64,000 nucleotides of DNA from Nereocystis luetkeana (taxonomy: Eukaryota > Sar > Phaeophyceae > Laminariales > Laminariaceae): positions 15,990,869-16,054,868 of the forward strand of contig JARUPZ010000003.1 of the NCBI GenBank assembly GCA_031213475.1, written 5' to 3'. Made by a program: the position numbers and the translations under genes. Within the stretch, counting starts at the first letter, position 1, and each line of letters opens with the position of its first letter. Shown here piece after piece: positions 5,028 through 58,421 of the stretch. The notes under the pieces were generated by a model, which was not told the DNA's origin, searched no databases, and worked only from the letters and a program-made list of their open reading frames with translations.

Positions 5028-6613
5028 GGGGCAGTCACCTCGGCAGGCAGTCGAGTTAGATATTGTTTTACGGGGAGACCTTTCCCTCCGCACAAAAGGG
5101 GGATGATCGTGTCACGTAGTGTGTATATGGTAAGGCACCCACGAGGAAGTTGCGTAGTAAACCCATTGCTGTCTTTGGAAGTGGCCGCACCAGAAGAAAC
5201 GAAATCAATTTATTGACCATGTCATCGATACGCAAGAAAATCCGCCTCAAAAACGGTTCTTGGTTGGATGCAGCCCGCCCTGCATGCGACTCGCCCTACA
5301 CCTCACGACCCTTCGCGCTTGGAGAAAGTATGTCTTCCTGGTCGGTGAAGCCGGCGTGCTCCGTCCTGGCATTGTAGGGATGCGATGGTCTATAGTCATA
5401 CAATTATGGCCATGCAAATGAGTAGCCCCCGGCCCCCCGCCGGGGCTCTGCCCTCCCCCCTCCCACCCACAGCCCTCCCCCCTCCCACACAGGCCCTATT
5501 TTCCTACTGTCGCCCGTGACCCGACCCAACCGCCCTGCCAATACTTCGGTAAAGAAAACTGGGTGAAGTATATTGTTCACCCGGACGCATATCATGAACG
5601 GAGTCGGCACGTGTCACTCCTTCTCTCAGGGACAACATCGTTTTTCCCGCCCGCCGGCAGATTAGTCGCTCGCTGCCCCCCCCCCCCCGTGTTCCACAAG
5701 CTTTATAGTAGTAACTCCCTAAACGACGGAAACTCTTTTGTATCCAACCCCACAGTTCCCCCTCCCCGTCTTCTGTTCTCGCACCTCTCCGTTCCTCTGA
5801 TATTTTGACTGCTGCTATGCCACTCCTGAAAATACGTTCGCTGCCCACTAGGTCCATACCCCACACTTTCTGCCCCAACAGACAACCGGCGGCGCGCCTT
5901 CCACCATCTCCTCTTCCCCCAGGACGCCTCGAGCATGTCGCTTCTTCACTCTCCCCGCCCCCCCTCTCCTTTATCCCCCTCCCCCCCAAACGAAATCGCC
6001 ACCGCCCTCATATTTAATCCCCCCCCCCCCCCGCGCCTAGAAACGCGGCTCCCTAGTTCCAAAAATATCGGCGTTTTACATTCCTTATGTCCCACCAAGG
6101 AAATATGTGCACAGCAGTAACAGTAATAGATCATGCAGATTGTACGGCTCCCATCCGGCAACTTAAACTGCATAACACATATCAGTTTATCCACGCGTCT
6201 ATCTACCTAGAATGATCTGCAGATAGATCGTGAAGTGGGAAACTGATCTATCTGATCTGACTCGTCTGTGGGAGTATCGTACCAGGTATCTGGTTGCAGA
6301 TCGATCTACTACACTGTACCAGGTATGTACTATTAATATGAGCAGTACACGGAAGAAGAGGCAGGCAGCGTGCTGGACAGGGTCGATTCGGTGGCTGCAC
6401 CGCGCTCGAAGATCTGGTCAGGAGGACATCTCAAATCAAGCAGACGGTGTGGAATCCTGATGGCATATCATATTTTCCGCTGATCGTTCATAGAGTGGTA
6501 CTGGTATGCACCTGCTGTGTAGCGCTCGCCGCATGTGCTGATCCCACTGGGTAAAACAAATGCAGGAATGAGTACCAGTACAGCATGGTACAACGTGCAG
6601 GCAAACGTGCAGC
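4403..6613. repeat. Gene-free, pyrimidine-rich low-complexity stretch
   Basis: No gene was recognised. The stretch contains C19 at 4782-4800, C16 at 4835-4850, a (TTG)n microsatellite at 4992-5026, further C-rich tracts at about 5,676-5,690 and 5,940-6,035, and two copies of the nine-base motif TACCAGGTA at 6280 and 6317. Apparent proline-rich frames are shadows of the C tracts. Confidence 0.6.
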
Positions 6614-6889
6614 TGTGAAGATCACGGAGAGCGGGACGCTTTGTATCCCTGGACAGGTCTGCCTATTAGGCCGGCACTCGTTGGTACTCACGTTGATGTT
6701 CGCTTCAAGATAGAAGAGCCACTTTATTCCTTTCGTGCGCGACGGAGACTGGGGCCACGCTCGTGCCTCTCTGGAAAACCCCTGGTTTTCCACTTAAGAT
6801 ACGCCTTCCAAGTACTACAAATACGATCCCAGTGCCAGAACCCAGGTAATTACCGGGTTTTCAACCTCATACAAAACAGTATCATAACA
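6614..6889 (-). repeat. LTR (3' LTR of the gypsy element)
   Basis: It starts TGTGAAGATCAC and ends ATCATAACA on the + strand, with the TG...CA termini of LTRs. Length 276 bp equals that of the partner at 17891-18166; about 260 positions match. On the coding (minus) strand the bases just upstream of it (about 6890-6905) are moderately purine-rich, a weak polypurine-tract candidate. Confidence 0.93.
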
Positions 6890-7486
6890 CTAGCCCACTC
6901 TGTTGAGCCGTATATGCAGAATTATGGGGAATTCATGGAAACCCCGATTCCACAACTAGAACATGAGTCGAAGATGCGGCTCCTCAAAACCCACTCCCAC
7001 ACCTCTGAACGGCAAGGCAACGAAGCCGGCAAAGTACGTAAAAAAGAATGAAAGGAAGCGTAGCCTCAAGGGGCAGGAAGAAATCGTCAACGAAAAACCA
7101 TCGCCATGTCACCCGCGACGGGGGGGGGCGAGGAAGATGCAGGGAAAGTGAAAAGGGAACATAAAAAAAAACGAGAAGAAATATATCAAGGAAGATATCA
7201 AGAGACATCGAAAACCCAGCCTACTACTCGGGAAACGTGTCCTGTCCCACAGTGAGTGGCACGATTACCCAAACCAGCCCCGACACTGAGCGGGGGGGGT
7301 AGGCAGGACAGAATACGAGAAAAACATCCCTAGCCAAGCCCAAGAAAAACACTCAAACAAACAACCCAGGAACACACCTGCCAGAAGAAAAAATCGACCC
7401 GAAAAGCCGGAAGACGTCAACAACGACCGCTTAAATCCAGGAAAACGTCGAGAAAAAAAAAATCGAGCGCAGCCAAGAAGCGAAAA
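6890..7486. other. 3' untranslated part of the gypsy element
   Basis: A-rich on the + strand (T-rich in the sense of the element). No domain was recognised between the integrase stop and the 3' LTR. Confidence 0.5.
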
Positions 7487-8535
7487 TCAGCTATCCACGG
7501 CGGCTCCTCGAGATTCGTCTACGTTACGCTGGACCCCCCGTGCAAACGCGCTAGCCAAGTGAAGTTGCCGATACCAAGAGCCTCGTACAGTTCTCGTCGA
7601 AGTCGTATAGCGCGCCGGAGAAAGAGGAAGCTTGATCGGTCCTGGGTCGTCCAAAAATCGAACAAAATATACTCCATCCGTGGGCGTAGTCGCGCTGATT
7701 TTCCCGAGCAACCGCAGTCCGTCGTCGCCCTTGTACCATAAATGGGCCGCGTTGAGAAGCACGGGGTTGCAGTGTCGGCGAAGCCAGTCGACGTGCGAGA
7801 CGCAGCCATAGCCGGGTGCCAGAAACCGCTCGCCCTTACTCCGAGAGAGCTCCCGTTGTGCCGCGCCGATTCTCATTCAGCGGTACAGGCGGTTGGTGTG
7901 ACGATGCTGGTTCGGGGTGCCGGCCCAGCAGCGCAAAATTGCGTGGCGAGAAAGCTGAAAGTCCATTTCCCGTTCCCAGGATGGACGGGAGAGTCCAGTC
8001 CAGTGCGTCTCGTACATCACTGCGATGACGCCACCTCGACCTCGAACCGATTGGTATCCGGTAATCTTTTCCACTTCGAGTCGGTGAAGAGGTGTCGAGA
8101 CGTCGTCCTGGGTGACGTGATACGGGGGAGATTTCTTGGAGAAGTTGTTGAGCACGTACTCCGTCAACCCCGCTAGCAAATACTTCGGCATGTCGCCACG
8201 GTCGTAGGGGTTGGCACAGGTCTTGCAGCGTTGAATTGAAACGCGCCGACGAGCATCCGCGCCGGGCATATCGGAGGGGAGATCCAAATACAGGAGCTTG
8301 CCCCAAGAGGAGATCCGTCTGGGGTGTCCGCTGCGGAGCAGGGGCCAACTGCGAGAACTCTGTAGGGGCCTGTCCAGTTGAGTGAGAGTTTGGCCTTCAG
8401 GACATTGGCGTCCGTGTCGGGTTTTGCCCCCTGGCAGATGGTGGCCGCCGTATTGTACGCCCACGCCCAGGCGCCAACGTCAAATCTGGGGACCGGACGC
8501 AGAGCGTCGGCGAGGGCGGAGTTGCGGCGGTTCAC
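7487..8535 (-). pseudogene. Integrase C-terminal region (broken)
   Basis: The reading begins with 'LNWTGPYRVLAVGP', the conserved GPY/F-type module that follows the catalytic core of gypsy integrases. It continues after a frame change near 8,330 into 'LLYLDLPSDMPGADARRR' and a long C-terminal extension. After an in-frame TGA at 7877-7879 the same frame resumes with a Trp/Gly-rich 'WYKGDDGLRLLGKIS...VYFVRFLDD' stretch resembling a small chromatin-reader fold (Tudor or chromodomain-like; inference from pattern only). The HHCC finger and the D,D-35-E core that should precede it were not found. The extension is far longer than in yeast Ty3. Confidence 0.75.
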
Positions 8536-9442
8536 GCGGGCAACAGTGAGGCGTACGCGCGCTGCTGGCGGTCCGCCGCCAAGTCACAATAGGCGAGGTG
8601 GTCGCGGGCCAAGCTTTGGTGGCCGGCGACTCCAGCACGCTCGAAATTCGTGAGGGGGAGGCGTGGCAGCCGAGGGCGAACTGAAATTCAACAGCTGCGC
8701 CGAGGGCATCCAAGTCATTCGTGGGGACGGGCGGCGCGTCAGTTGGCAGCGGAAGCCGTAAAAGAGGGGTTCCCACGGGTTCGGCGCGGTCGCGTTCGGA
8801 CGGGATGGGTACCGTCGGGACCAAAGAAGCGGCAGGAGCCGGGGCCAACACGACTGGTGCGGTTGGTCGCGGCCGTGGGGCTTGCGGCGGGGTGATCGCG
8901 CGCCGGGCTGATGGTCTAGGGGCCCCGCCGGGCCCGAAACTATTTTCAACAGCAGGCGGCGCGGAGCCAGCGGTGGCGGTTGTTCGTCGGCGCGTCCGAG
9001 TGGAGATGCGGCCGGAACACGGCAAAACGGTCGGAGGCGCCGGGGTGCCAGGCGGCGATGGGGTAGACGCGGCCGGATCAGTGATCACAGTGGAATCTTC
9101 TCCCTGTGAGAGTGGAGATGCGGCCGGAACACGGCAAAACGGTCGGAGGCGCCGGGGTGCCAGGCGGCGATGGGGTAGACGCGGCCGGATCAGTGATCAC
9201 AGTGGAATCTTCTCCCTGTGAAATGCTCGTCGGGGGAGAAGCGCGCTGGGCGACAATCGTCGCTACAGCGGGGGCTTTTGCAGAGCCCTGGTCGCCCCCA
9301 GGGGGTAAGACAAAAACAGAAGCGAAAGTGGCGTTGGCGGCGGGTGAGAAAACCCTCAAGCCAGGACGGCGATCGACGGTGGCGACGGAAGCAGAGACAC
9401 GAGCGACGAATCTCCCCTAAAGAGCAGAGAGGTCGTCAATCC
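8536..9442 (-). other. Pro/Ala-rich spacer where the integrase core is expected
   Basis: The minus strand is open in one frame over much of 8,480-9,088 but encodes only Pro/Ala/Arg-rich sequence without integrase motifs. A 112-bp tandem duplication lies inside. It probably marks a deletion or replacement of the integrase catalytic region. Confidence 0.5.
9001..9220. repeat. 112-bp tandem duplication
   Basis: 'tggagatgcggccggaac' starts at 9001 and again at 9113. The copies are essentially identical up to 'ttctccctgtga' at about 9108 and 9220. Near identity shows the duplication is much younger than the insertion itself. Confidence 0.9.
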
Positions 9443-10141
9443 TCATACGTGGCCCGTGTGTGCGAAAATCGCGAAAATCCGAAGAGGTGAAAGGCAGCCC
9501 ACCCGAGACGGCACTTTCGGTGCGGGGCACCAGCCCACCCTAACCGACACCGGGGGTCGGGGGAGAGCGAGTGCGAAGCCCGCGGGCCTGGATGAGGAAG
9601 ATACCTCCGTCCTCGACGGGGTGAGGCTGCTAGACCCACTGCGGTCGTGTTCTATGGCGGGCTCTGGTAAGCGAGAGAGAAAATCAGCATTGCCGTTGGC
9701 GCTGCCCTGGCGGTACTCGAGGGTGTAGTCGAACGCTGTGAGGAACTCGAGCCACCGCTGAACTCGCGCGATATGCTCCCATACTTTGCCGATGCTCTCA
9801 AGTGCCTTGTGGTCCGAAAATATGCGAAACTTTGTCCCCCATAGGTAGCCGCGGAGTCGCTTGATACCCCAGACAATGCTGCCAGCTTCCAGGTCCAACG
9901 GGGTCCAGTGCCTCTCGGAATCGAGAGTAGCGCGGCTGATACAAGCAATGGGCCGTACCGAGCCGTCCAGTTGTTCTTGTGTAAGCACGGCACCAAAACA
10001 GTCGAGGCAGGCGTCAGAGTACACGCGAAAGAGGCGGGAGCCGTCGGCTACAGCGTCCCAGTCCGGGAAGACCAAAATTGGCGGAGCAGCGAGGTGGTAG
10101 AGAGCGGTAGGAACGGCTACTAAAACGCATCCAGCTGGCAC
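9443..10141 (-). pseudogene. RNase H domain of gypsy pol, with end of RT thumb/connection
   Basis: The frame opens with the connection segment ('PPILVFPDWDAVADGSR') and then carries a Ty3-type RNase H. The acidic residues are Asp in 'YSDAC' (residue ~43), Glu in 'LDLEAG' (~85) and Asp in 'FSDHKALES' (~110). The exit motif 'GNADFLSRLP' marks the end of the domain. The enzyme would degrade the RNA strand of the RNA:DNA hybrid during reverse transcription in the virus-like particle. The polymerase domain that should lie immediately upstream (fingers and palm with the YxDD box) is missing; only about 75 bases separate this frame from the protease segment. The tail after about residue 165 is Ser/Pro/Arg-rich linker. 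Confidence 0.88.
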
Positions 10142-10215
10142 TTCCCAGGAGTACTGTATGCTGCATCACCGAGGGGGGAACCAGGCAGGCGCAAACTGCG
10201 AGGGAGCACGTAGGC

Positions 10216-10599
10216 TCATTTTCTCGAACAAATTGGACGCTCCAGGCGCACTCTCGTCGATGTCTTCAGAGGGGTTGATTCGCCCAAACCCCCCCAGGAA
10301 CGAGGGGCGCATTTCTGCTCGCACGCGATGGATGCCGCACCAACCCCAAGCATGCGATTCAAAACATCTCGCCGAATGAAGGTCTGTTGGGAGCCAGTGT
10401 CAAGAAGCGCCACGCAACCGAAAAGTGCAAGAACGCCAGCTCCGCTGTGAATCGCGATTTTGGTTGTAAAAAAGACGTCATCGAGGGTAATGGTGCCCTC
10501 AACGAGGCAGGGGCTGTGCTCTGGCAGCGCGAGGGAGGGGTCGACACCAGGTGCGACAGCCAAACCCTCGGGGCTGTGATCAGCCGGCGCGTCAGAAAA
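10216..10599 (-). pseudogene. Retropepsin-like aspartic protease segment
   Basis: The catalytic signature 'VALLDTGSQQTFI' is present, with the D-T-G-S active-site loop at about 10,390-10,401 and a hydrophobic run before it as in retroviral-type proteases. The frame is the same as that of the NADAR segment directly upstream, separated only by one TAA at 10600-10602. NADAR and protease were thus probably one continuous polyprotein reading. The ORF ends at 10216 without the C-terminal flap and hydrophobic-GR region of the family, so the protease is truncated where the RT deletion begins. Confidence 0.75.
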
Positions 10600-11319
10600 T
10601 TAGGTCGAAAACTTCAAGGGAGGACCTAGGCAAGCGCGGGCCACGGCCAAAGGGCGAAGCGGCGCTGGGGAAATCTCATGAATTCTGTCAGTCGTGGTCG
10701 GAGGGCTAAATTGATGAGAGGAGGCGGGGGGTGCCAACCCGGCCTCACTTGAGCGGAGGGTGTCGCGAACGGCGGAAAGAGCTTTCCCGAGCCAATTTTT
10801 GCCACGCCACCGACAGGGGTCTTGAGCCTCGGGGTCGTCTGCCCGGAGACCGATGCCCCACACGGAGTCAAAAGGGCTGGCTTCAGCCAAAATTTTGTTG
10901 CCAGTGCTAAATAGGTGCTGCTTCATGACCGGGTTCTGCGCGAATTTGGCAAAGGGACCAGCAAGGACGGCGTCTTCCCGAACGCGGTCCCAAGTAGCGC
11001 AGCCGAAGTTATGCACGCCTCGACCGAGGCGTTTCTGTTCGTGAGGGTCTGGCGAGGCCATAATCCGCTCCGCTGTGTCGTGGTCCAGAAAAAGGCGAGC
11101 CTTTTCAGCCATCATATACTGCTCCGCGCAGGAATATGTCACTCCGTCACAGACAAAAACACCGAGGGGGACCACTGCGAAAACTAGGAGGGGGGGTGCC
11201 AGAAAAGTACCACCCGCTCCGTTGCACACTCGAGAGTAGGGTCTAAGACCGAAGATGTCGAGTCGTCGGTGGCCGCCGTTGCGGTGTGTGTTTAGGGGAG
11301 TGTTCTTCTCTGAGAACAC
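10600..11319 (-). CDS. NADAR (YbiA/DUF1768-like) domain inside the gypsy polyprotein
   Basis: This 239-codon open frame contains a nearly complete NADAR domain at about residues 55-192. Visible family hallmarks in order are 'DGVTYSCAEQYMMAEKARLF' (Glu of the first active-site helix), 'KRLGRGVHNF', 'KFAQNPVMKQHL.STG', 'LAEASPFDSVWGIGL' (Asp and Trp of the pocket) and 'WRGKNWLGKALSAVRD'. Known NADAR proteins are N-glycosidases: E. coli YbiA acts on riboflavin-pathway intermediates, and bacterial relatives remove ADP-ribose from guanine in DNA. The N-terminal beta-strand motif ('LSNF'-like) is not recognisable. The segment lies between gag and protease on the coding strand of the element, so it is element cargo rather than a host gene. 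Residues important for catalysis look intact although the surrounding element is broken. Its role in the transposon cycle is unknown. Confidence 0.85.
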   Translation of the reverse strand: MFSEKNTPLNTHRNGGHRRLDIFGLRPYSRVCNGAGGTFLAPPLLVFAVVPLGVFVCDGVTYSCAEQYMMAEKARLFLDHDTAERIMASPDPHEQKRLGRGVHNFGCATWDRVREDAVLAGPFAKFAQNPVMKQHLFSTGNKILAEASPFDSVWGIGLRADDPEAQDPCRWRGKNWLGKALSAVRDTLRSSEAGLAPPASSHQFSPPTTTDRIHEISPAPLRPLAVARACLGPPLKFST

Positions 11320-12227
11320 TGAGCCCCTGGTGCACGAGGCGAGTCCGGTTCCACGTATACTGGCTCAGTGTCACCATTGCCCGTAGGCAAAAAATCGCCA
11401 GAAGGTTCTCTTACTGCGCCCGATGATCTCTGTCCTGGACCAAAGGGGGCAGGGGGCTCTGAGCCCGTTCTGCTCGACGAGAGCTGCGATTCTTCCGAAT
11501 GTAACGGGTATGCAGTCCGGTTGATCTGACCGGAGGCTGTGGAGTCACCACTGGCTCGACGGGCAGTACCAGGTTTTTCCTGTTCCACTAGAGCCGAAGG
11601 AGCGCGGCGCACGTGGAGTGGCGTGCGCGAAGAGGAAAGAGGGCCTGCAGACCCTGTAGACGACTTCAAGAACGGTGCTCCGGTGGGGGGCAACAAAGGG
11701 TCCACCGGAGAGGGTTTCCGTCCTGTAGACCTGGTGGGGAAGGGGGACGAGGTAGCTAATCTTGTCGACTCTTCCTTAATCGGAAAAAGGATTGAACGGC
11801 CACCGGTATTGCGAGGAAACGCCGAGTCGAGCTTCAACCGAGATCACGTGGTTTCGGTGTTTGCCTTCCCGCACCTCAAACCGACCGCCACCGCATGGCC
11901 GGGAGGTGAAAGAGGGGCACACCCTCGCTGAAAAGAACGACGCAACGGCACGACACGCGTGATGCCGCGCGGTGCGTGGTTCGGGAGAGGGGCGTTTATC
12001 TCGCCTGCTCTCGTGCCCAGGGTGAGAGGAGCGGCGTTCGAGGCGCGGGCTCCCGACGTCGGCGAAGACGCCCGGGGACTCCCCGGTAGAACCGGTGGAG
12101 CTGAGTCGCTGCGTCGGTCCGAAGTACGGAGCAATGCGCGGGAGGGGAGCGGCGCAGGGCGACGCTGAGTGCTGAGCGAGCCTGGGACGCGTGTATCTTG
12201 TGAAATCAATGTATTTTCTCCCGGCAA
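11292..12227 (-). pseudogene. Pro/Ser/Arg-rich gag C-terminal linker
   Basis: Two minus-strand open segments (11,292-11,837 and 11,844-12,227) share one frame, split by a single stop, and also share the frame of the zinc-knuckle segment upstream. Composition is Pro, Ser, Arg and Gly without recognisable fold. It joins gag to the NADAR segment through a frame change close to 11,300, where -1 or +1 frameshifting or splicing would normally connect gag and pol. Confidence 0.45.
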
Positions 12228-12461
12228 TGCTGGCGGCGGGCGGGCAGGAGGAGCCGAGCCGCCGTCGACCTGTCAGTTACCGGCGCGGAAGGTGCCTGGA
12301 TGGCGTCCCATGGGGTGACCGTCCGAATTATGCGATGCACCGTGGCGAACCCCCGACGCGAGAGCCGCGGTGGAAGAGGCAGAGTTGGTCGAACCACCAC
12401 CGTGGTAGCCGGAGTTAGACTGTTGGCGCCCTCGTTCCGCGTGTGTGTTGTAGCCGCCACC

Positions 12462-12911
12462 TTATCTGTGGCCCTGGCCGTGATGCTGTCCACGCGAATG
12501 GCCTGAACGTCCCCTGTTTTTCTTGTGGTTGTTCTTGTTCGGCCGTGAGGTTTTTTCGCGGCGGTGTCGGGCCATGCGTTCTTGCCAACGACGGAACGCC
12601 GCTCCGTCCTCGCCGAGAGTTCCGAGGTCGGGGTTGAGAATACCGCTGAGGTTTTGAAAGGGATGCCTACACTGTCTTAGGGAGTGTGAGTCTTCGTGGC
12701 AGTTCAAACAGCGGCCTCGGCTTCCGCTGGGGGCGGCCGCGTGGGCGGACGATGAAAGTAGACCGCTCCAGAGAGGGGGGTCCTCGGTCTGGATGGACAT
12801 GCAAACAGCGTGAACTTCAGCATAGTGGTGTTCTTCTAGGGGCCAGCAGTTGGAAGCGGAGTCAAGCCACGGGTCGAGGCAGTCAGGGATGGATTTGTGG
12901 ACGTTCATCAC
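12462..12911 (-). pseudogene. Gag nucleocapsid segment with CCHC zinc knuckle
   Basis: 'CLNCHEDSHSLRQC' fits CX2CX4HX4C exactly, the RNA-binding knuckle of gag nucleocapsids. It is followed by a strongly basic Lys/Arg/His-rich tail suited to binding genomic RNA. The frame is the same as the segment at 13,014-13,331 upstream and the linker downstream, interrupted by single stops. Confidence 0.85.
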
Positions 12912-13013
12912 AAGCGGATTATTGCGCGACCCCGTCTGCCAAACAGGCGACTGGGGAAGCGTCCGGCCCTGGCCGCGACCATTACCGGCGGGCCGGGGAC
13001 CCGACGGGGCGGA

Positions 13014-13331
13014 TTACCGCACACTCGTCGAAGAAGCAGGCAAATAAAAATATTTTTCGCCGTTGATGGCAGGTGTCTTATTATTCGCGAGAGTCTCAAA
13101 AGCCAGCCACATGGCGTCCAAAGTACCAAACGGCCCCGACACGTTAGCCAAAACTCCCCGGTACAGCGTGGGCATCAAGCTGGGGAACTGCTCGTTCCGA
13201 ACAACCTCCAAAACAACCTCCACCCCCGGAGCCAAAACACGCTCAGTCCCCGTCGCTGCCGACATTACTCCACGAAAAGCACGGCTAAAATCGCAAAAGG
13301 GGGTCCCGTTAGGTACGCCAAAATTATGCAA
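13014..13331 (-). pseudogene. Gag capsid-like segment
   Basis: An open segment beginning 'HNFGVPNGTPFCDFSRAFRG' is followed by 'PSLMPTLYRG' and 'LDAMWLAFETLANN'. This helical, Trp-containing sequence precedes the zinc knuckle in the same frame, where the capsid C-terminal domain of gypsy gag lies. Assignment rests on position and composition. I know of no diagnostic residue. Confidence 0.6.
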
Positions 13332-13384
13332 CTTGGTGTAGCTGGCCCCCGTGTCGGTGCGATCGAAGTGGTTGCTCAGCAGCC

Positions 13385-14536
13385 TCAGGAGGAGCGTGAA
13401 CGCTTCCGGTCCCGTCGATCAAGCTGCGAGGGCGCGCGACACCTCTTGGAGCCGGTGGTGACTTCGGGAACGGGGCTTTCGCCGCCGCCGTCAGTGGAGG
13501 ACCTCGAAGAGTTGGCCTGAGACGCGTCTCCCCGCGGGCGGTAGCTCCAATTTCGCCCGTCGCTCGAGCTGTCCTTCCCCTGGCCCCGGTTCCACCGCCG
13601 ACCAGCCCCGCTTCGCCGGAACGTGCTCCTGCCATGGTCTGAACCCTGTCCACGGCGGGCCTTGCCGTCTTGGCGTGTCGAGGCTCCCCCCGTGCTTGGA
13701 CGCCAGCGGTCCCGGGCGTCATCGGGGCGGTAGGGGTGGTCACGGGCCCCAGAGCCGTCGGGGACTCCCAGGTGTTGGTGCCCCGGGGGCCGGTGAGTCC
13801 TGCCGTCCGAGAGGGGGTTGGAGGGGGCGTGGGCCTGACCCGAGCCCTGTCCGACGTCCGGGAGCCGTTGTCCCTGGGCGCCGAGGTCCGCCCGGCGCTT
13901 GCAATGGCGCCCATACTCCATCGGGGTCGGCCAAAAAACGGTGGCGGAGCACAAATCGTGCGCCTGCCGAAGGCTTTTCACGAGGGCCATGGTGTGCTCC
14001 CGGCGTTGCTGGGCCTTCCAGCTGTCACCCGCCATGACAAGCCAAGCGTCGTGGACGGAGAGGTCGTCCTCGGGCATGTCCAGTCGGAGCTCGCGAGCGG
14101 CAGAGACGACCTTCGAAGCCGCCTCCAAGGGGAAGCATGAATTTGGGGCAGCGGCCATGCAGGCGACACTCCCCTGGAAGAAATCCAGATCCCCGGTACG
14201 CTTGATCCGGGCGTCGACCGCGATGGCGCCAGGAGGGAGCGTGGCGGAAGAGTCAAAACCGGGGGCTGGAGTGGCGGTTGTCGCGGTCTCGGCGAGGGGA
14301 AGGCGCTCCCCTGAGTGTCTCGTCTCGGCGACACGACGGGGCTTCGTGCTGCTGTCCGCCCGCGCCGCCCGCAGAGCTTCCCTGGCGCGGGATATGGAGT
14401 CCTGGGCGCAGGAGGTGGAGCGTGCGGCGCCCTCCGAGGCAACGGCGGCCTCCTTCGAAGAGTCGTTTGTGGCCTCCGAAGCAATGGTCGCGTCGGCGGC
14501 GGTGCGAGCGGCCGCTGATGCCACAGTCTCGGCCAC
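13385..14536 (-). pseudogene. Gag N-terminal/matrix-like segment, Ala-rich then Arg/Gly-rich
   Basis: 383 codons are open. The first ~65 residues are Ala/Ser/Glu-rich and likely form a coiled coil. The middle ('SVHDAWLVMAGDSW', 'HTMALVKSLRQAHDLCS') looks helical and ordered, and the last ~170 residues are basic and low-complexity. The plus strand is also open in places, which reflects high GC. It lies upstream of the capsid-like segment and in a different frame, so at least one indel has occurred. Confidence 0.5.
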
Positions 14537-14601
14537 CGTGAGCGCCTACGCCCGGCGGCGGGCGGTTTTCGCCGAGGTCGCTCCGAGGGTCTCGGCGGCA
14601 G

Positions 14602-15174
14602 TCAAGGTCCGTTCGGCCGTCGCGACATCGGGGTGATCCTCGGCTGCAAGAGGCCGTGATCCCCCCGCCGAGGTCCGGCACGTCTGACCAGCGCCGGATG
14701 AGGGCCGCCTGGGCCTCGACCGAGAGGGAGGTCCAGGCCTCTGGTAGTTGGGGGGGGCGGGGCTTGATCCCCGTCCAGCGCTGTCTCCCTAGCGGCGCCT
14801 TGCATCGTCGTTCGCTCTTTGCCCTCGGAACTGCGGGCCTCGTAGTCCACAGCGTCGTCCATATCCGTTCGGCCCGGACGCTGGGGTGTCCGCTCTCCCG
14901 ACGAGGGATAGGAGCCGTAAGTCCTCAGGCCGCTGACAGACCTGGCGGGGCTGGGGGACTCCTCCTTCGCCTTTGGTGTCCGTGGCATGCTGAGTCGGAA
15001 ACAGGCGAAACACATCGGGGCAGGGGAGGGCACCGGGACAGGGGGGGACACCGGGGCCGGGGGGTGCGGCATTCGGCGGAACTCAGGGTCGTGTAACGAA
15101 GGAGCTGCGGTGGCAGTATCCACGGCTCGTGCTTCAGCAACTTGTCTAGCGGTGATGAGGGCATAGCGAGCCAT
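14602..15174 (-). pseudogene. Possible gag leader segment, Pro-rich
   Basis: 190 codons are open. It begins 'MARYALITARQVAEARA' and becomes Pro/Arg-rich. It could be the start of gag after the 5' leader. No family match was recognised, and it is in a different frame from the next segment. Confidence 0.35.
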
Positions 15175-15588
15175 TCATCGAGCACTATGAGCGCTTGGGG
15201 AGCCAGCATCGATCCGAGAAGGTGGCGCGATAGATATGCGGTCGTCGCGGGGTGTACGTGTACTAACATCCAGTGTGTTTAGTGAAGGTACGTCGCCGGT
15301 ACTGGGGGGGCTATAATAAGCATCGTCCCTTCCAACTGCAGTATTATTTTTTTTCTCGGCACATTTTCCAGCAGAATCGTCGCGGGTCGCTACAGCAGCG
15401 GGTATGGTAGGCGCTGTACTAAATTCCACGATGCCGTCTTGTGGGCGGGGCGCAGGGAAAAAATCTCGAGCGGCCGTCTCGCTCCCTCTAGCAGTAGTCT
15501 CAAAACTTGCAGCAGTACTGTAGGTTCCAGCAGAATCAGCGTGGGTGGCTACGGCAGAGGAAAAGGCAGGTGCACTACTGAAATGCAG

Positions 15589-16980
15589 TGTGCCGTCTTG
15601 TGGGTGAGGCGTGGGAAAAATTCACGAGCGGCCATATCGCTCCCTCTAACAGCAGCGTCAAAACTCGCAGCCGTACTGGAATTTTCAGCAGAAACTGCGC
15701 GGGTGGGCACAGCAGCGGGCAACGCAGGCGCAATACCGAAAACCAGTGTGCCGTCTTGTGGGCGAGGCGTGGGAAAAATCACGAGCGACCATATCGCTGC
15801 ATCAAAACTCGCAGCCGTACTGGAATTTTCAGCAGAAACGGCGCGGGTGGGCACAGCAGCAGGCAACGCAGGCGCAATACCGAAAGCCAGTGTGCCGCCT
15901 TGTGGACGAGGCGTGGGAAAAACTCACGAGCGACCATATCGCTCCCTCTAACAGCAGCATCAAAACTCGCAGCCGTACTGGAATTTTCAGCAGAAACTGC
16001 GCGGGTGGGCACAGCAGCGGGCAACGCAGGCGCAATACCGAAAACCAGTGTGCCGTCTTGTGGGCGAGGCGTGGGAAAAATCACGAGCGACCATATCGCT
16101 GCATCAAAACTCGCAGCCGTACTGGAATTTTCAGCAGAAACGGCGCGGGTGGGCACAGCAGCAGGCAACGCAGGCGCAATACCGAAAGCCAGTGTGCCGC
16201 CTTGTGGACGAGGCGTGGGAAAAATTCACGAGCGACCATATCGCTCCCTCTAACAGCAGCATCAAAACTCGCAGCCGTACTGGAATTTCCAGCAGAAACG
16301 GCGCGGGTGGGCACAGCAGCAGGCAACGCAGGCGCAATACCGAAAGCCAGTGTGCTGTCTTGTGGGCGAGGCGTGGAAAAAAATCACGAGCGACCATGTC
16401 GCTCCCTCTAACAGCAGCATCAAAACTCGCAGCCGTACTGGATTGTTCAGCAAAAACGGCGCGGGCGGGCACAGCAGCGGGCAACGCAGGCGCGATACAG
16501 AAATCTAGTGTGCCGTCATGTGAGCGAGGCATGGGAAAAATTCACGAGCGTCCGTATCGCTCCTTCTGACAGCAGCACAACTCGAACCAGTGCTGGAGTT
16601 GCCAGGATCTCTGTTTGTTGCTACAGCAGCGAGGGAAGTAGGCTCAACACTGAAATCCTGTGTGCCGTCTTGTGGGCGAGGCGCGGGAACAATCTCACGA
16701 GCGGCCGCATCTCCCCCTCTACCAGCAGTATTAAAACGCGCAGCAGTACGGAATTTCCACGCGGAATCGTCGTTTGCAGCTACAGCAGCGAGGGAAGCGG
16801 GCTCAATATTGAAATCCTGTGTGCCATCGTGTGGTTCAGGCACGGGAAAAATCGCATCGTGCGCTCGCGTTGCGGGAAAAAATCACGAGAGGCAGCATCG
16901 CTCGCGGCTATCCTACGCGTACGAGCGAGGTCGGGCAGCAGTGGAATCGTGCGAGGCGGAAAAACAGTCTCAATCACTCT
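15589..16980. repeat. Nine-unit 144/158-bp tandem array in gypsy 5' leader
   Basis: The anchor 'tgtgccgtcttgtgggcgag' recurs at 15589, 15747, 15891, 16049, 16193, 16351, 16509, 16661 and 16820. Successive intervals are 158, 144, 158, 144, 158, 158, 152 and 159. The 144-bp form lacks about 14 bp of 'tccctctaacagcag'. 15747-16048 and 16049-16350 are near-identical 302-bp higher-order copies. Because 158 is not divisible by three, reading frame is lost from unit to unit, so the array is not a coding repeat. Confidence 0.92.
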
Positions 16981-17029
16981 CTCATCTGGCCCAGGAGCAG
17001 GTAGATCCGACGGCAAAGGGCGCAGCTGG

Positions 17030-17490
17030 GTGGCGTGGAAAACGCTACGTCCAGGCTTGCCCGTCGCTCTCCGGCCCAGTGCAGAAGCAGCTGGCTCAAC
17101 GCTCTCAGCGGAGCCAGGTGGCTTGGACGGCAGTAAAACGCTACGTCCAGGTTTGTCCGCCGCTCTCCGGCCCGGAGCAGAAGCAGCTGGCTCAACGTTC
17201 TCAGCGGAGCCAGGTGGCTTGGACGGCAGTAAAAAGCTACGTCGATGTTTGTCCGGCGCTTTCCAGCCCAGAGCAGAAGCAGCTGGCTCCACGCTCTCAG
17301 CGGAGCCAGGTGGCTTGGACGGCAGTAGGCACGAGTGGGGAGTCAAAACCGCAAAACCCAAGGCCTGGCTGGTTACGCGCGCCACGCGCTCCGAAAAGTC
17401 CGACGCTCTCCGGCCCAGAGCGGAAGAAGCTGGCTCAACGCTCTCAGCGGAGCCAGGTGGATTGGACGACAGAGCTCGTCCCGGCGAGCG
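17030..17490 (-). repeat. 96-bp tandem repeat, coding-compatible period
   Basis: 'gctacgtccagg.ttg.ccg' recurs at 17044, 17140 and 17236, exactly 96 bp apart. A fourth, displaced unit lies near 17,400. On the minus strand each unit reads as about 32 residues containing 'LLPSKPPGSAE.VEPAASA'. Unlike the neighbouring 158-bp array, the period keeps the frame, so this part may once have been translated as a Pro/Ser/Ala-rich leader. Confidence 0.85.
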
Positions 17491-17870
17491 AGAAGGCTCG
17501 GAAAAGGTCTTGAACGAGGTCCGTCTGCCGGAAGCTGCTCGAGATTCGCCAAGGGGCCCCAGCCCTGGGTCTTCGGACGGGCGAGTTGTTCAAGGCGCGC
17601 GATCCACGCCGTCATCGCGGGGCTCCTGCCGAGACGCCCGCTCCGCTTGGTGGTCTGTTGTACAAGGCGCTCGATCTCCATCGACGAACCTTGGGCGGTG
17701 AGGCACTGGGCGGCTCTGGGCCTCAGTGTCTCGTCCACCACGAGGGGAAGCAGACCCTCCCTCCTCGTGAGTCTCCATGGTGCAGTGGAGCAAACTGGCT
17801 CTAAAAAAAAAGCTAAACGGAAGCAAAAACAGAGTGAAAAAAAAATTGTACCGCCAAAAAGGCAAAAAGT

Positions 17871-17888
17871 CCTAAGCCGAAGACGCCA
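17871..17888 (-). other. Primer-binding-site candidate
   Basis: Two bases inside the 5' LTR, the minus strand reads TGGCGTCTTCGGCTTAGG. A PBS begins with TGG, complementary to the CCA end of a tRNA, and position and start fit. The donor tRNA cannot be named from sequence alone. Confidence 0.6.
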
Positions 17889-17890
17889 CT

Positions 17891-18166
17891 TGTTAAGATC
17901 ACAGAGAGCGGGACACATAGTATCCCTGGACAGGTCTGCCTATTAAGCCGGCACACGTTGGTACTCACGTTGATGTTCGCTCAGAGATAGAAGAGCCACT
18001 TTATTCCTTTCGTGCACGACGGAGACTGGGGCCATGCTCGTGCCTCTCCGGAAAACCCCTGGTTTTCCACCTAAGATACGCCTTCCAAGTACTACAAATA
18101 CGATCCCAGTGCCAGAACCCAGGTAATTACCGGGCTTTCAACCTCATACAAAGCAGTATCATAACA
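17891..18166 (-). repeat. LTR (5' LTR of the gypsy element)
   Basis: It starts TGTTAAGATCAC and ends ATCATAACA; the first and last five bases are inverted (TGTTA/TAACA). It differs from the other LTR at about 16 of 276 positions. It would hold the element promoter, directed toward lower coordinates. It ends 638 bp upstream of the start codon of gene A on the opposite strand. Confidence 0.93.
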
Positions 18167-18804
18167 CAGCACATTTTTGCTCGAAGCGAGCGATCACTTC
18201 GATAAAACTCGTAGTGTTTGTCCGCAAGAAATAAAGGGGAAAAATCCTTGGATTCGTTCCATGTTTGCATGTTGCCGAACACAAAAATTACTTGCTACCA
18301 GTACAAGATTCTGGCGAAGTCGGTACGCCGTAAAATATCGACCTGACTCCAACCCTAACCTTCGCCTCGAGCGCACCCCGTCTCGTGCTGGGGACGAACG
18401 ACGGTCGGGCCCGGTCCAACCGATGCCGTTTTTTTTGGCGCGGAGACTGTAGTATCGTACTGTCTATTTTGTTCTTTTACTGATTACACTCCTGGGCATA
18501 CCAAGTTGTCCCATACGTATGGTTCTGGATTGCCAGTGGTATATGTCCATCTTGAACAAGCACTGCAGCAGAAACTTTTGTGTTCTTCGTAAAGATTCCG
18601 ATTTGTGATAGCAACAAATAAAACGCTCGGATGATTCCTGCAGCCGTACATTGCTCCGCCCAAACCACAACAACACAGCTCAACCGCTCCGCTACTACTC
18701 CTCCTGCTCCTGCCACGCTGACCGTGGGCTACTGTAGTACTGCAGTAGCTGCAGAGCTCATGCTATTTCGCCCCCGCGTCGGTCTTGGGTTGCCGGTGCC
18801 GAAC
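18167..18804. promoter_or_regulatory. Upstream region of gene A
   Basis: 638 bp lie between the retroelement and the first ATG of gene A. No TATA box or other defined promoter motif stands out. It must contain the 5' UTR and the proximal promoter if the gene is transcribed. Confidence 0.3.
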
Positions 18805-19856
18805 ATGGGGAATCTTCGTGGCTGCAGCCAAACATCCCCGTTCGGTCGAGCGCGGGCCACGCTGTCTGTGTTGTTCCTTGGCTCGGCTGGGTACCTGCAC
18901 TCACTGTCCTCCGCGCAAACTGTGTGCGGTGTAGCCCAAACCACTCCAATTCGAGTCGAAGACGCAACTGAAGTGGATGCACTTCGAGCGGCTGTGAGTT
19001 GCTCCAAAGGCGGTGTAGTGGAGGCTGACTGGGCTGGCAACATCACGCTCCTCGAGCCAATCGCGGTTGCAGAGGGTACCTTCCTGTACGTGACGGGAGA
19101 GGATGCTCTGGCCGAGGCACACGGCGACAGGTTCCAGACCAATGGGACCCGTCTGTTCGAGGTTTCTCAAGGAGGCGGTCTGACCCTGACTGGGCTGAAG
19201 CTGTCGGGAGGTACTGCTGCTGAGGGGGGCGGAGGTGCGATATACGCGTCTTCTGCAAACTTGACGCTGAGTAACTGCACGTTTGACGGGGGGGCGGTAC
19301 CGAGGGGAACGGGGGGGCGGTATGGGCCGAGGGAGGAAACGTCACGATCATGGGGGGAGAGTTCTTGGCCAACACCGCGCCTGGTTATGGAGGGGCCGTG
19401 TACGCCGTCGAAGGCAGGTTGGTGGTTCAAGGAGGATCCAGGTTCGAGGGCAACGAGGCCGTCGTGGGCGGTGGGCTGTTCTGTGGCATGGGGGGGGATG
19501 TGGGCGTGAACAAGCCCCTGGTTTTATGCTCCATCACGGACGCGGAGTTCGAGTCCAACTCTGATGTGCGCGACAACAACGACAATGTCGAGTATTTTTC
19601 GTATTACGACGGAGGCGGCGCTGCTGCGTTCATGTTTGCGATTGTCGATATCACTGATTCTCTTTTCGACGGAAACAAAGCGCGACTTTCGGGCGGGGCC
19701 TTGCATGGGGGCGCTGAAAGCACCTTGTCCGTGAATGGGTGCACGTTTTTTAACAACACCTCGGAGAAGTTCGGCGGGGCGATCACCGCGTCTTCCATGA
19801 CCCTGGGAGGAAGCACGCAGTTCACGAACAACGAAGCCGGAGAAGATGGTGGTGCG
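18805..19856 (+). CDS. Gene A exon 1
   Basis: It starts at ATG 18805; the hydrophobic segment ending 'LSSAQTVCGV' is the signal peptide. Pmp repeats follow. The paralogous exon in gene B is 1,053 nt and this one 1,052. The frame shifts by one base between 'CTFDGG' and 'GGEFLANTA', inside G-rich runs at 19,288-19,315. The donor is GCG|GTACGT. Confidence 0.85.
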
Positions 19857-22800
19857 GTACGTAACTTGTTTTCTGGTCTTTATCGTGTGTCGTGTACTCG
19901 TAGCTGGTGCGTACAGTAGGTAATTTATTTTGACGCTGTACGATACAGCAGTAAGTATTAATAGTACAATCGTACCTGGTACGGCTTCCCAGAATTCCTA
20001 CTCCACTGCTGCTGTAGTACGAGTACAAGTACGTGTGTTCCATCGAGCGACCGTCGATGGGAGGTCGATCGAGCGAGGGCGTGACCGATGAAGGGCAGCC
20101 AAGGATTGCACTCAGAACAATTTCTGGGCGACCGTGACCGACCGCTGTACGACCGCGCTCTGTACTGACAGTCTTTGCTCACTGCCTGCATACAGCTGCA
20201 GTAGTGCCGTTGTTGTACATAGTAAACATACCCTCGTTGTAATGTGGGTACATCACTGCCGAGCTGTACACCACTGTACAGTTCTGCTGCACTACTACTG
20301 CAGTAGAGCTGCCTGCTGCAACTGTACTGACTTCCGCGACTTCTGCGTGTGCTCAACATGCATCGTTCATGTTATAGTACTACTGCTGTAGCCTAGGCAA
20401 CACTGCCATCTTGTACTTGCGCGGCAGCTGCTGCTTGCTGTTGTCCTGTGCGCACGCCGAGCAGTATTATACCGCATTAGTTGTAGAACAATCAGTTCTG
20501 CCGTTGCTCCGTTAAAACAAATATGGCTCTTGACAATCTTCAAAAATTAAAAAAAAAACAAAATAAGAAAGAAGTGATTTGTTCATGTGCACGGCTCATA
20601 CATATATATTCGTATACCACACATACATACGAATACGCCGTTGGATTTGCAGTCGGAGATCAGCAGTCGTGTGTCTTCTAAACACTAAAACAGCGCAAAT
20701 AAGCACGCTGGCGCCAGCCCAACACCGCCATCGGGCTCCGCGTGCGCACCATACTCACGATGACCAAGAGACACGGGCAGTTGGAAAGGGCAAGCGGAAG
20801 ATGAAACACCTGTAAATATACGTGCGTACGGCAGTGGACACCCGCGGGTGTTAAAAATACACGTGTGTGTGTCCTTCACATTAAACCGTTCTTTCTACCC
20901 GTCGACATCTACAGCACAACCAGTGTCCGTGCCGAATCTTCAAATCCTAGAAGGGACACAAGTTCTGTGGTCACAAAGCTACGCCACAGACAGGTATACC
21001 GCGTTGCCACGTACCAGGTATGCAGTAAGCACAGCAGCAGTGGGCAATGCAATGCCATGTCATCACATACAAGGTATGCACGACAGACACGGCATACACA
21101 TTCTATGAAATAGAGAAACGAAAGGAAACAATCAAAGAGAGAAAACAAAAACAAAGACAAATCAACAGAGAAAATAGAAAAAAGAAGGAAAAAACCTAGA
21201 AGAAACAATCTGTCGTGCCCCCCCCCCCGCAGGCGAGGTGGGCAACACTTGAAAAAAAACGGACTGGAAAAAAAAAAAAAAAAAAAAAACTGGTAAAAAA
21301 TAACAAAAACAACGCTGTGCTTTGAACAGAGCAAGACAAAGAATAGAAGAGGAAAAAATAACAAAGGGGAAAATAACTGGCAGGCCGAAGCCCAAAGCAC
21401 CCTACACGTAGGTACACGTCAATTTGGTGTCCAGGCACAAAGCCTTTACCAGGCATTATCTCTCCGACCTTGATCTAACTCAATTATACTTCGAATGATA
21501 GGACTTACTTGGAGTTGGCCCCACTACAGCAGTAATTGTTGAGGCAATTCTCTTGGTGTTCGTGCCGATCTGAACCAATTCTTCTTCTGGACCCTTTTAG
21601 GACTGCTGCAGCCAGTCCCGTTGTGGAGACCAACCTGACTGAGTAACTTGTCTCCAAAACGGGACTGCAGTCCTGAAAGGGTAGGCACTACCTGGTATGT
21701 TCTTTAACCTCGGGTGCTCACTATATATATAATAATATATATAATATATATATATATATTTATGTACTACTGGTGGTTGGTGCTGTTGTTTCTCCTAGTT
21801 TTCGCTGTCATTTTTTTTCTTTTTCACTTTCGATTTGCCTACTTTATTTTTGTTTTCTCTTTGATTGTTTCTTTTCGTTTCACTATTTCATAGATTGTGT
21901 ATGTCGTGCCTGTCGTATCTAGTATGATGACATGGCGTTGCATTGCCCACTGCAGTGCATACTGCACACGTGGCAACGTAGTATCTCTGTGGCGTAGCTT
22001 GGTGACCACAGAACTTGTATCTCTTCTATTAATAGGATTGAAGAATCGGCACGGACACTGCTGGTTGTGCTGAACGTCGACGGGTAAAAAGAACGGTTTA
22101 TTTTCATTTTGCGAATAAAGTCAAATGTCCGACCCACCTGGGGCTCGAACCCAGGAGGACTCAAACACAAGTAGAATTCGAGGTTAACCGCTTGAACCCC
22201 CGGGGCGATATTACGCAGCTTGCAAAGTTGAGTATCAACTATATAATCAGTCGAACACACAGCTGACGTATTTCATAATTAAAGAAAATCAACAGACAAC
22301 TATTTAATCAGTCGAACTCACAGCTGACGTACCGGTATTTCATAATTTAAAAAATCAACATGACCAGTTATATATCAAGAGCAGAAGAGGCCAAGAACAT
22401 GTACGATAGTGAGACTATTATCATACTGAGCCTCACCAACAAACACGTGCGTGCTCATGTACCGGTACGTCAAGATTCAAGATCTGCTGCAATTTTTACA
22501 GGGAGTATATTGAACAATTTCAAAGTACCTGGTGTATGAAACATCCTCCTCTGTCTGCAGCTGGATTTTTTGTCGGCAGCGATACATCAATAATACAATA
22601 CAGCAGTGCAGTACCAGTACAAGTTTATATGCACGTAGGAGAGCGAGCAGTTTGTTTTCTTCTTTTGGTTTTTGCTGACGGGCTTATTATCCCTTCTAGA
22701 ACCGTAGTTCTCTTTTGAGGACAAACCAGCCTAATTCTAACAATTTTGTCCCCGAAACGAGACTGCGGTCCTAAAAGGGTGAATTTAAATAGCAGCCATA

Positions 22801-25800: not shown

Positions 25801-28800
25801 AAGTTGTGGATACATTGTGGGGTGTGAGGAATACATCGCTCTATGCTTCCATAACGACGCAGCAACCCCACAAGGTCTCGCCAACCTCTCAGTTCGGTAC
25901 GTTCAATGACAAGCTATGGTACTTTGTTCAATGTCTCCACAAGAGCGTTTTTATGCCCACATTGTGCAATCGGGGGGGGGCGGGGGGGAAGCCAACCTGT
26001 GTTTCAGTGGTTTTCGCAACGGTCTCAATTCTTATCATCAACGGCAAGTTCCCGGAGATCCTTCGGTATATCGAATCACTAAGAGGTCGTTCACTCTAGG
26101 CATGGTGTCAGTTCTTTGATAGTCGGCTTGATACTGGATTCTCCACGCCAGATGTTTTAGGGAACATCGCCCGTGTGGGTTATTACTCCTCGTTTCACCG
26201 CATCACGGCCCGCACATAGTCCGTTTTACGCCCCCCGCAAAGACACGCCACCGTCTACGGATGGCCGCCTCGACGCTCTCGCATTGCGTCTTCCTGAGGG
26301 CCTGGGTGTGCAACGAGTTGTATTCGGTATGCCGCCCGCGCCTTTTTTGGGTGTGTCTATCGATCACAATTCTGCACTGTGTTGCTACGCTATCACGTAT
26401 GTAGAGTGCGAGACTTGAAATGTTACATATTTTTTCTTGCCCGGATGAGCCTTCGTAGGGCCTCATCGAAGGCCGAATACCACGTAGTATACAAGCGAGG
26501 ACAGAGAAAGACCCAATCAGACAGAATCAGAGTATAAACATACGCACGTCCGCTTTTGCAGTAAGCCATGCCAACCTCTACGCCATTCCGATTGAGTTAT
26601 TAATAGAACAATACACAATTTAGGTCGCCATCACCACGGTCCACCTTGGGGATGTTGAGCATGTTGACGAAGAGAACGGCCAAACGGCCACACGAGAAAG
26701 GAGCCCAAAAAGACGGTCGGGACTGTTACTGAACAATCGCGCGTAGCTACGGGACTACAGTGGTACGCACACTGCAGGAACGAAACACGCACGAACTACA
26801 CTAGGCTAATCGATTAGAATCCCGAAGATCCTCTCGCGACGTTGAACATTGACAATCTTACGATCCGGTACTGACGTCATCTCCCATCGCCGCCCTCACG
26901 ACCCGCCGGGATGCTCGTGAACGGGCGCGAGGCCTTCCCCGGCGCAGCCGGCGGCATCGAGCACGGTGGTGACAGCAACAAGATAAATGGCGTACTTCCA
27001 CTCTAAATAAACCCGAAGCACTCATTATGTACCTCGCTCGGGCGTCGAGAGAGGAGAAGTGTATCATATATACGCACATTTTTGTTATGCTCAGCATATA
27101 TGTTTTGCGCACCAGAATACCGGCACTGTCGTACAAGAAGAGGAGATGTTTCGAGTTCGTAATCTTGTATGCTGAGAAAAACGCGGCTTTCACCAAACTC
27201 GACGGACATCGTACACGAGCATACTACTCTGGTATTTCGAGGAGATCATACCGATACTGCAACTCCAACTGACCATCACTCTGTGCTACACTGCAGGTGT
27301 ATGGGTGGGATATATTTGGCACGGTAACGTTCAACGATGTTAATTGCTCGGGGAATGTTGCGGCGAATGACGGCGGCTGTTTTTACGGTGCGGGCAGCAA
27401 CATCTTTAACGATGGCGTATTCATGCTAGACAACGAGGCGGAGAAAGGCGGCTGCATATGTGAGTGCAACATGCATCGATTTGGGTTCCTTTGCACGGGC
27501 AGGGGCACCGCTGCTACCGTGCTTTTATTTTTTTCGGGTGCTGAGTTCGGGGGCTGCAAACGCCACGAATACTCTATACAGTACCTATGGTCGACGGGGG
27601 TAGATCTCGACGAACCCAGGCTGCTGGCAAGAGGCAAGCTGGCGCCACCGTCGTTTTCGCCAGGAATGGATACGTCCCTGATGCACGCTCGCTTGGATAT
27701 TGTAGCTCCTATGTAACGTAGGACTGGCAATACAGTGGGGAAACATTCCGAGTTGCGGGGTTTTGCCCCGAACAGCCGAGCATGGTCAAGGACACATCGC
27801 GAATCCTCTACGAACGACTTCCCCAGCCCCCGACCCCCTCTCCCACAACGTACTCAATACGTCGTCCACCTGACGGGAACTTGCTCGACATGATTGTTTT
27901 TGCAAACTGCCCCCCACTTGTGCTCCCGACGCGTGCGAAACAGTCGCGTACGAGGGTAGCAATGCTACTGTCGCCGGCGGAGAATACACGTGCGAAGCCG
28001 TCAGATTCGGCGGTTTCCTTTTTGTTGGCGGCGGTACTCGTGTCAAGATCACCTCGGGGTCGTTTCAAGAAAACGTTTCGGGTAAGAACGGCGGCGCGAT
28101 CTACTGCGATGGAGCTGATGGGTCCTCAGATATGTCAATCGAGGGAGGCTTGTTCAGGAACAACGAGGCGCAGGCGTCAGGGGGCGCGATCGCATTGTGG
28201 GGAACGGATGTGGGGGCGATGATAACCGGAGGAACATTTACTGGCAATTTCGCAACGTGAGCTTGCCAACGCATAAGATGGCAGTTCTTGCCATAGGTAT
28301 ATAGCTGCCATTTTTTCGCTTTGACCTTAGGCGCAATCACGGATTAGGGAAGAAGAATGTTTCAGGGGAGGGCTCTCGATGCACGATTGGCCTCGACGTT
28401 TGGCACAATGTGAATCTTTATGCGCCTATAGTTTGTGCTGTCGTATATTGTTACCCATGTCTGCCTCATCGGAGATTTTGTCTGGGTGAGCTGCATGCCG
28501 ATTACTGCACAATTCTCATCGCACTGATGCATGACTGCCCTGCTCTTCATTTCTCGCCACGCCTTTTCACAGATTTTTTGGCGGCTTCATTTACACGGAA
28601 GAAGGCGCCAGCATTAGTTGCAAGGGGGCCATCATCACGGGCAACTCCGCAGGCGATCAAGGCGGCGGTATCTATGCCCACCAAGCCACATGGGTGAACT
28701 CTAGCTGCAACTTAATTTCCAACGAGTCGCCCCAAGCAGCGGCCATCTACCTGACAAACGTGGAGAGCGCCACGTTCGAAAACCACTACGTCACCGACAA

Positions 28801-58420: not shown

Positions 58421-58421
58421 C

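Follow-up and report, generated by a model that had tools for sequence, protein, structure and literature searches.

Why does a retrotransposon in the genome of Nereocystis luetkeana encode a NADAR domain between gag and protease, and what might the domain do there? We examined this question in a 64,000-nucleotide stretch of DNA (the window), in which a NADAR-bearing ORF with a GTG start lies at 10600-11319 on the minus strand. An earlier note had recognised the domain by eye, and an HMM search, the check that it had proposed, bore it out. Pfam PF08719 matched ORF residues 57-189 to profile positions 32-163 of 163 (E=3.5e-46) with 157.9 bits, far above the cut-off of 35.1, and NCBIfam TIGR02464 matched the ORF at E=1.5e-39. 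The Pfam match and the fold model discussed below place the domain at 10753..11151 (minus strand). Our own NADAR profile, for which 19 homologues served as input, yielded a single match in the six frames of the window (218.3 bits) and matched 0 of 10 codon-shuffled windows. A chance or misread ORF at 10600-11319 was ruled out by the Pfam score and the codon-shuffled controls.

The AlphaFold model of the ORF, with 31 aligned sequences as input, had a mean pLDDT of 75.8; 122 of its 239 residues reached at least 90, nearly all of them within the domain, and the blocks across the domain were mostly above 90. When this model was compared with the PDB using Foldseek, the best match was 8bau (E=5.6e-9), followed by YbiA 2b3w (E=3.3e-7); these two NADARs were the only ones of 34 matches below 0.001. 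8BAU is the NADAR of the oomycete P. nicotianae with ADP-ribose bound, and the contacts described for it are E43, K50, R79, W89, R93, E125, D130 and W133 (PMC11543638). All eight, aligned with a chain numbering offset of 2, are kept in the ORF as E66, K73, R100, W110, R114, E146, D151 and W154, respectively, and the pocket motifs that had been called legible are thus intact in the window copy. The same source assigns NADARs to subfamilies by the residue at the E125 position, Glu marking YbiA, Asp the BC4488 type and His the phage type (PMC11543638). By this criterion the gypsy NADAR is classed in the YbiA subfamily, as the position is Glu (E146) in the ORF and in 34 of 41 relatives. The gypsy domain is predicted to share its fold with the P. 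nicotianae protein as well as all eight contacts, but the latter stands alone and is 30% identical in the structural alignment, whereas the former sits within Pol and its activity is a prediction.

The domain is enclosed by an LTR element of 11.55 kb at 6614-18166 on the minus strand. Its 5' LTR (17891..18166, minus) and 3' LTR (6614..6889, minus) have TG...CA ends and differ at 16 of 276 aligned columns (5.8%; K2P 0.061), in agreement with the ~6% divergence given earlier. They are flanked by a 4-bp target-site duplication, CAGC (left copy 6610..6613, right copy 18167..18170), and a likely primer-binding site, TGGCGTCTTCGG, called by sequence only, lies 2 nt inside the 5' LTR (17877..17888, minus). 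LTRs with TG...CA ends, the target-site duplication and the likely primer-binding site are marks of the Ty3/gypsy type. Read 5' to 3' on the minus strand, the element opens with a long repeat-rich leader; frames in the gag position, with a CCHC knuckle, and a Pol leader come next, ahead of NADAR, protease and RNase H, and a possible integrase-end remnant comes last.

Taking these parts in turn, an open frame at 13388..14545 (minus) was assigned to gag by its position and had no match in Pfam. The ORF at 12462..12911 (minus) carries CLNCHEDSHSLRQC, whose C-X2-C-X4-H-X4-C pattern we take to be a gag-type zinc knuckle; in Pfam this ORF gave nothing but a sub-cut-off match to another family. An N-terminal Pol leader runs into the start of NADAR at 11154..11879 (minus), where tblastn aligned residues 1-238 of P0024, one of the relatives described below, at 69% identity. 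The aspartic protease (10219..10599, minus) bears the motif LLDTGS, is homologous to P0001 and P0121 and lies in the same frame as NADAR; it had no Pfam match among the frame pieces scanned. It is followed by an RNase H of the reverse-transcriptase type (9446..10165, minus; PF17917 E=1.4e-27, PF17919 E=1.5e-17). A possible C-terminal remnant of integrase at 8176..8583 (minus) had no match in Pfam; it contains WTGPY, presumably an integrase C-terminal mark, and like the knuckle it was read directly from the letters. Pfam recognised no integrase in 16 frame pieces scanned (6 plus 10, 6 of the latter within 7490-9196) and no chromodomain in the piece 7490-7876. Pol in the window therefore runs from protease to RNase H, with the reverse transcriptase (RT) deleted and integrase not recognised in the pieces scanned. 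The LTRs and the target-site duplication uphold the description of a Ty3/gypsy-type element, and NADAR lies between its gag and protease, as stated earlier.

Repeats were also observed in the element. Its 5' region holds a minisatellite-like array at 15386-16852, with families of 300 and 236 nt in 5 and 6 copies, respectively, and spacings of 158, 302 and 311 nt; beyond the array, more repeats with Ala/Ser/Pro-rich coding were seen by eye as far as ~17.5 kb. The decayed 3' part of Pol contains a perfect 112-nt tandem duplication (8998-9221).

Relatives of the domain were sought among 5.8 billion proteins, which gave 708 matches, 120 of them listed; the top-scoring relative among those listed was 78% identical across 72% of the NADAR ORF. 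These 120 of 708, together with 13 proteins from further searches, formed a comparison set of 133, in which an LLDTGSPQTFI-like protease motif was present in 7 proteins and the NADAR-protease linker motif in 21. The searches for family proteins were seeded with NADAR and thus retrieve carriers only. A search permitting long proteins returned five matches, including P0121, a protein of 1947 aa in which Pfam identified NADAR, RVT_1 and RNase H and which is uninterrupted through RNase H. P0121 is laid out as NADAR-protease-RT-RNase H, with the protease motif LLDSGS near residue 591; Pfam found no integrase family in it at E up to 0.01. It was the only gypsy Pol open through RNase H found by the NADAR-seeded searches, and 8 of 8 ADP-ribose contacts are kept in its pocket. 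Identity between the window and P0121 was 53% over 135 aa for NADAR, 41% for the protease and 63% for RNase H, and by this comparison NADAR is kept about as well as the neighbouring Pol enzymes. Because NADAR recurs in relatives and is open in P0121, it belongs to Pol, and judging from these alignments Pol of this Ty3/gypsy family has it as an inherent component. The label "cargo" given to it earlier must consequently be dropped, since NADAR is integral to Pol in the divergent P0121, open through RNase H, as well as in a Gypsy lineage already published for Ectocarpus. A one-off capture of a host gene was likewise ruled out by the recurrence in relatives and by P0121.

The window copy itself is dead, bearing a frameshift, stops and the RT deletion. 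NADAR and protease form one frame, split by a single in-frame stop codon at 10600-10602 (minus), a position at which P0001, P0002 and P0004 have a residue and read through. The GTG-started ORF opens with ~55 residues that do not represent the true start of NADAR, because the N terminus of the domain continues in another frame at 11154..11258 (minus; residues 304-338 of P0121 by tblastn), where it meets a premature stop. The leader frame at 11154..11879 contains three stops in all. Using tblastn, residues 337-643 of P0121 were placed at 11157-10243, residues 644-691 at 10241-10098 and residues 1255-1415 at 10102-9620. Residues 692-1254 (563 residues) are without counterpart, which marks the deletion of RT, with its junction at 10098..10102 (minus).

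The arrangement has been described before. A 2025 study of Ectocarpus sp. 7 reports a Gypsy lineage (e.g. Gypsy-12_Ec32) with NADAR at the N terminus of Pol, states that all families of this one lineage carry it, and describes a C-terminal chromodomain after the integrase of Gypsy-12_Ec32 (PMC12477816). The window element is likewise Ty3/gypsy with NADAR at the Pol N terminus; it differs in that the window copy lacks RT, and the comparison with Gypsy-12_Ec32 is one of descriptions. Novelty is limited because the text of that paper already reports the NADAR-Gypsy fusion, and the window element is another case of an unusual arrangement. To the published fusion we add the kinship of its NADAR with a stand-alone brown-algal protein (98/98) and the occurrence of NADAR in two further protein families of putative RT-like nature. 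The same paper mentions another retroelement with a YbiA-family NADAR, the Tx1 LINE of Crassostrea gigas, which differs in being non-LTR, in carrying NADAR in ORF1 and in its divergence, and which is known here from the paper's text only (PMC12477816).

We inferred the origin of the gypsy domain from two trees. Domain rows of at least 120 aa numbered 223 (217 distinct), and 134 were taken into a quick tree: 41 of P0001-P0048, P0073, P0106, P0121-P0127, 21 viral rows, 32 prokaryotic loci, 30 of 63 other proteins and the window. The prokaryotic rows came from the best 80 of 583 confirmed loci. A second tree contained 38 rows hand-picked from the 134. In the 38-row tree the seven gypsy rows grouped together (99/96), and with P0121, P0073 and P0106 they formed a clade (98/98) separate from 23 other rows comprising named prokaryotic loci, viral contigs and unnamed proteins. 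The grouping of gypsy domains with P0073 and P0106 had an SH-aLRT of 96 in the 134-row quick tree, and that of gypsy rows with P0121 to the exclusion of P0073 and P0106 was weak in the 38-row tree (85/64). P0106 is from the brown alga Pylaiella littoralis; both it and P0073 are listed without other domains and thus, as listed, are not in a polyprotein, in which they differ from the gypsy domains with which they group. Viral contigs held 27 NADAR loci of at most 56% identity, and scanning these contigs with P0121 and P0001 revealed no relative.

Because P0106 and P0073 fall within the 98/98 clade, these trees argue for an ancestor shared by the gypsy NADARs and a stand-alone brown-algal protein; transfer may have run in either direction. 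A fresh capture from bacteria by the element, as suggested in the Ectocarpus paper, is less favoured by the 98/98 clade and the SH-aLRT of 96. That suggestion of horizontal transfer was based on blastp matches outside Ectocarpus being almost all bacterial (PMC12477816), and NADAR proteins of Ectocarpus have been held likely to be proteobacterial in origin, with weak support (PMC7922944). An older bacterial source for brown-algal NADARs would be compatible with the 38-row tree. Outside Pol, Ectocarpus has Esi0017_0056, a stress-induced DUF1768/NADAR protein of 391 aa, and two similar proteins (PMC7922944); Esi0017_0056 was not identified among the tree rows. The kinship of the gypsy NADAR with a brown-algal protein outside Pol provides a host-element pair to compare.

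We also compared conservation of the pocket with that of the whole domain across 41 relatives. The seven of eight sites that were testable averaged 0.81 compared to 0.77 for the domain (p=0.29), and p was 0.079 when R93 was left out (6 sites); at the R93 position 18 of the 41 have R and 19 have K. Conservation at the pocket sites thus did not significantly exceed the domain average in these 41 relatives, many of them decaying fragments. This result would count against strong catalytic selection, with the qualification that many rows are decayed.

As to function, we propose that NADAR is an N-glycosidase made within Gag-Pol that frees the element's nucleic acid of ADP-ribose, as an accessory enzyme in the manner of dUTPase, a reading that we favour at somewhat under an even chance. 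The Pol polyprotein would start with a low-complexity leader and the YbiA-type NADAR and continue with protease, RT and RNase H, integrase presumably coming last. In working copies NADAR would be translated within Gag-Pol and freed or exposed by the element's protease inside the particle, where it may cleave ADP-ribose from guanine, or else from related bases or nucleotides, of element RNA or cDNA. Its removal might keep reverse transcription and integration unblocked, giving NADAR a role in sanitation or counter-defence similar to that of dUTPase. Reversal of nucleic-acid ADP-ribosylation by the element would fit the known chemistry of the family (PMC11543638, PMC11125620), as the YbiA-type NADAR of P. 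nicotianae is described to hydrolyse guanine-ADP-ribose (PMC11543638). The betaretroviral dUTPase-Pro is likewise an accessory enzyme that acts on nucleotides and lies N-terminal of the protease, although its chemistry is unrelated and it belongs to animal retroviruses (PMC1224870). The physiological role of nucleic-acid ADP-ribosylation in eukaryotes is described as unclear (PMC11125620). Should the gypsy NADAR prove to be an active de-ADP-ribosylase, it would point to nucleic-acid ADP-ribosylation in algal cells and offer a genetic handle on that modification.

The substrate may, however, not be nucleic acid, because YbiA-type proteins are also reported to be active on riboflavin intermediates (PMC11125620). 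NADAR might target small NAD-derived molecules (free ADP-ribose derivatives, or products of RNA repair or NAD-capped RNA) or ADP-ribosylated proteins, and so blunt a host alarm. Such a small-molecule role has been proposed for many viral NADARs, notably those of phages, but where eukaryotic RNA viruses are concerned the review that makes this proposal prefers macromolecular targets (PMC9503650); moreover, the closest solved relative acts on guanine-linked ADP-ribose, and embedding in Pol would place NADAR in the particle with RNA. We consider this alternative unlikely, if still worth entertaining. Rather less likely, in our estimation, is that NADAR aids the processing of the RNA intermediate of transposition with no host conflict involved. 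The Ectocarpus authors suggest this role, also for the oyster Tx1 LINEs (PMC12477816), and NADARs have been linked with RNA-repair systems (PMC9503650), yet the characterised chemistry of NADARs is cleavage of N-glycosides, and the cited work describes no direct processing of RNA. That NADAR is a non-catalytic module binding ADP-ribose or nucleic acid, serving for example in target-site choice or RNA packing, would accord with the pocket test and with the replacement of W133 by C in 3 of 3 methyltransferase-family rows checked, but P0121 keeps all eight contact residues, and we regard such a module as quite improbable. Least probable is a useless passenger captured once from a host or bacterium, since against the broken window copy, the close stand-alone relatives in the 38-row tree and the non-significant pocket test stand a NADAR that is open in P0121, exceeds the protease in identity to it and is described as "highly conserved" in all families of one Ectocarpus lineage (PMC12477816).

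The search permitting long proteins also yielded P0122, P0123, P0124 and P0125. P0122 and P0123 contain 6 and 7 zinc-finger-like motifs, respectively, around NADAR, and YFDD occurs in P0123 only. A similar zinc-finger-like motif was noticed by eye before NADAR in P0106 of Pylaiella. P0124 and P0125 have a cytosine methyltransferase domain by Pfam and YxDD motifs (YCDD and YTDD), and the P0124-P0127 family combines a cytosine DNA methyltransferase and NADAR with an RT/RNase H-like end. By blastp, NADAR was the only stretch that P0122-P0125 had in common with P0121. In two C-terminal fragments from P0122-P0127, Pfam gave no match at E up to 10. The model of P0129, a C-terminal relative of P0125, had a mean pLDDT of 52.6, and its structure search gave RNase HI as best match (E=0.019) and HIV-1 RT at 0.17, with none below 0.001. 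Nine relatives of the P0125 C terminus were listed, an incomplete list from which P0124 is absent; three had NADAR (P0125 included) and six were without it by Pfam, two of these six being only ~1000 aa long. These features are suggestive only of P0122-P0127 being retroelements. Among the papers listed by our NADAR/YbiA-retroelement literature search, we found none on P0122-P0127.

These proteins raise the broader proposition that eukaryotic retroelements have repeatedly acquired NADAR as an accessory enzyme, captured separately by Gypsy Pol, Tx1 LINEs, P0122/P0123 and P0124-P0127, and directed against a host defence that would attach ADP-ribose to the guanines of retroelement RNA or cDNA. If so, de-ADP-ribosylation would serve retroelements generally as a counter-defence comparable to dUTPase. 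We think that unlikely at present. In AU tests on the 38 rows a single clade was not rejected, whether for gypsy with P0122/3 (p=0.15), with P0124/5/7 (p=0.36) or with all of them (p=0.09), and separate capture by several retroelement families is therefore unsupported on this tree. In the 134-row quick tree, constraining gypsy with P0122/3 gave a result 41 log units above the free search (p-AU 0.88).

Elsewhere in the window, a likely non-LTR retrotransposon at 57770-60806 (plus strand) encodes an endonuclease (PF03372, E=1.1e-5) followed by RVT_1 (E=1.2e-33); tblastn with NADAR-family proteins detected no NADAR at this locus. ORFs at 28694-29911, 43246-44943 and 52665-53801 matched Beta_helix (E=1.6e-6, and E=4.1e-4, which is below the cut-off) and a polymorphic-membrane-protein repeat (E=2.1e-12), and a similar ORF was seen by eye at 18631-19919. 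The ORFs with Beta_helix or polymorphic-membrane-protein repeats across the window are possibly a clustered gene family.
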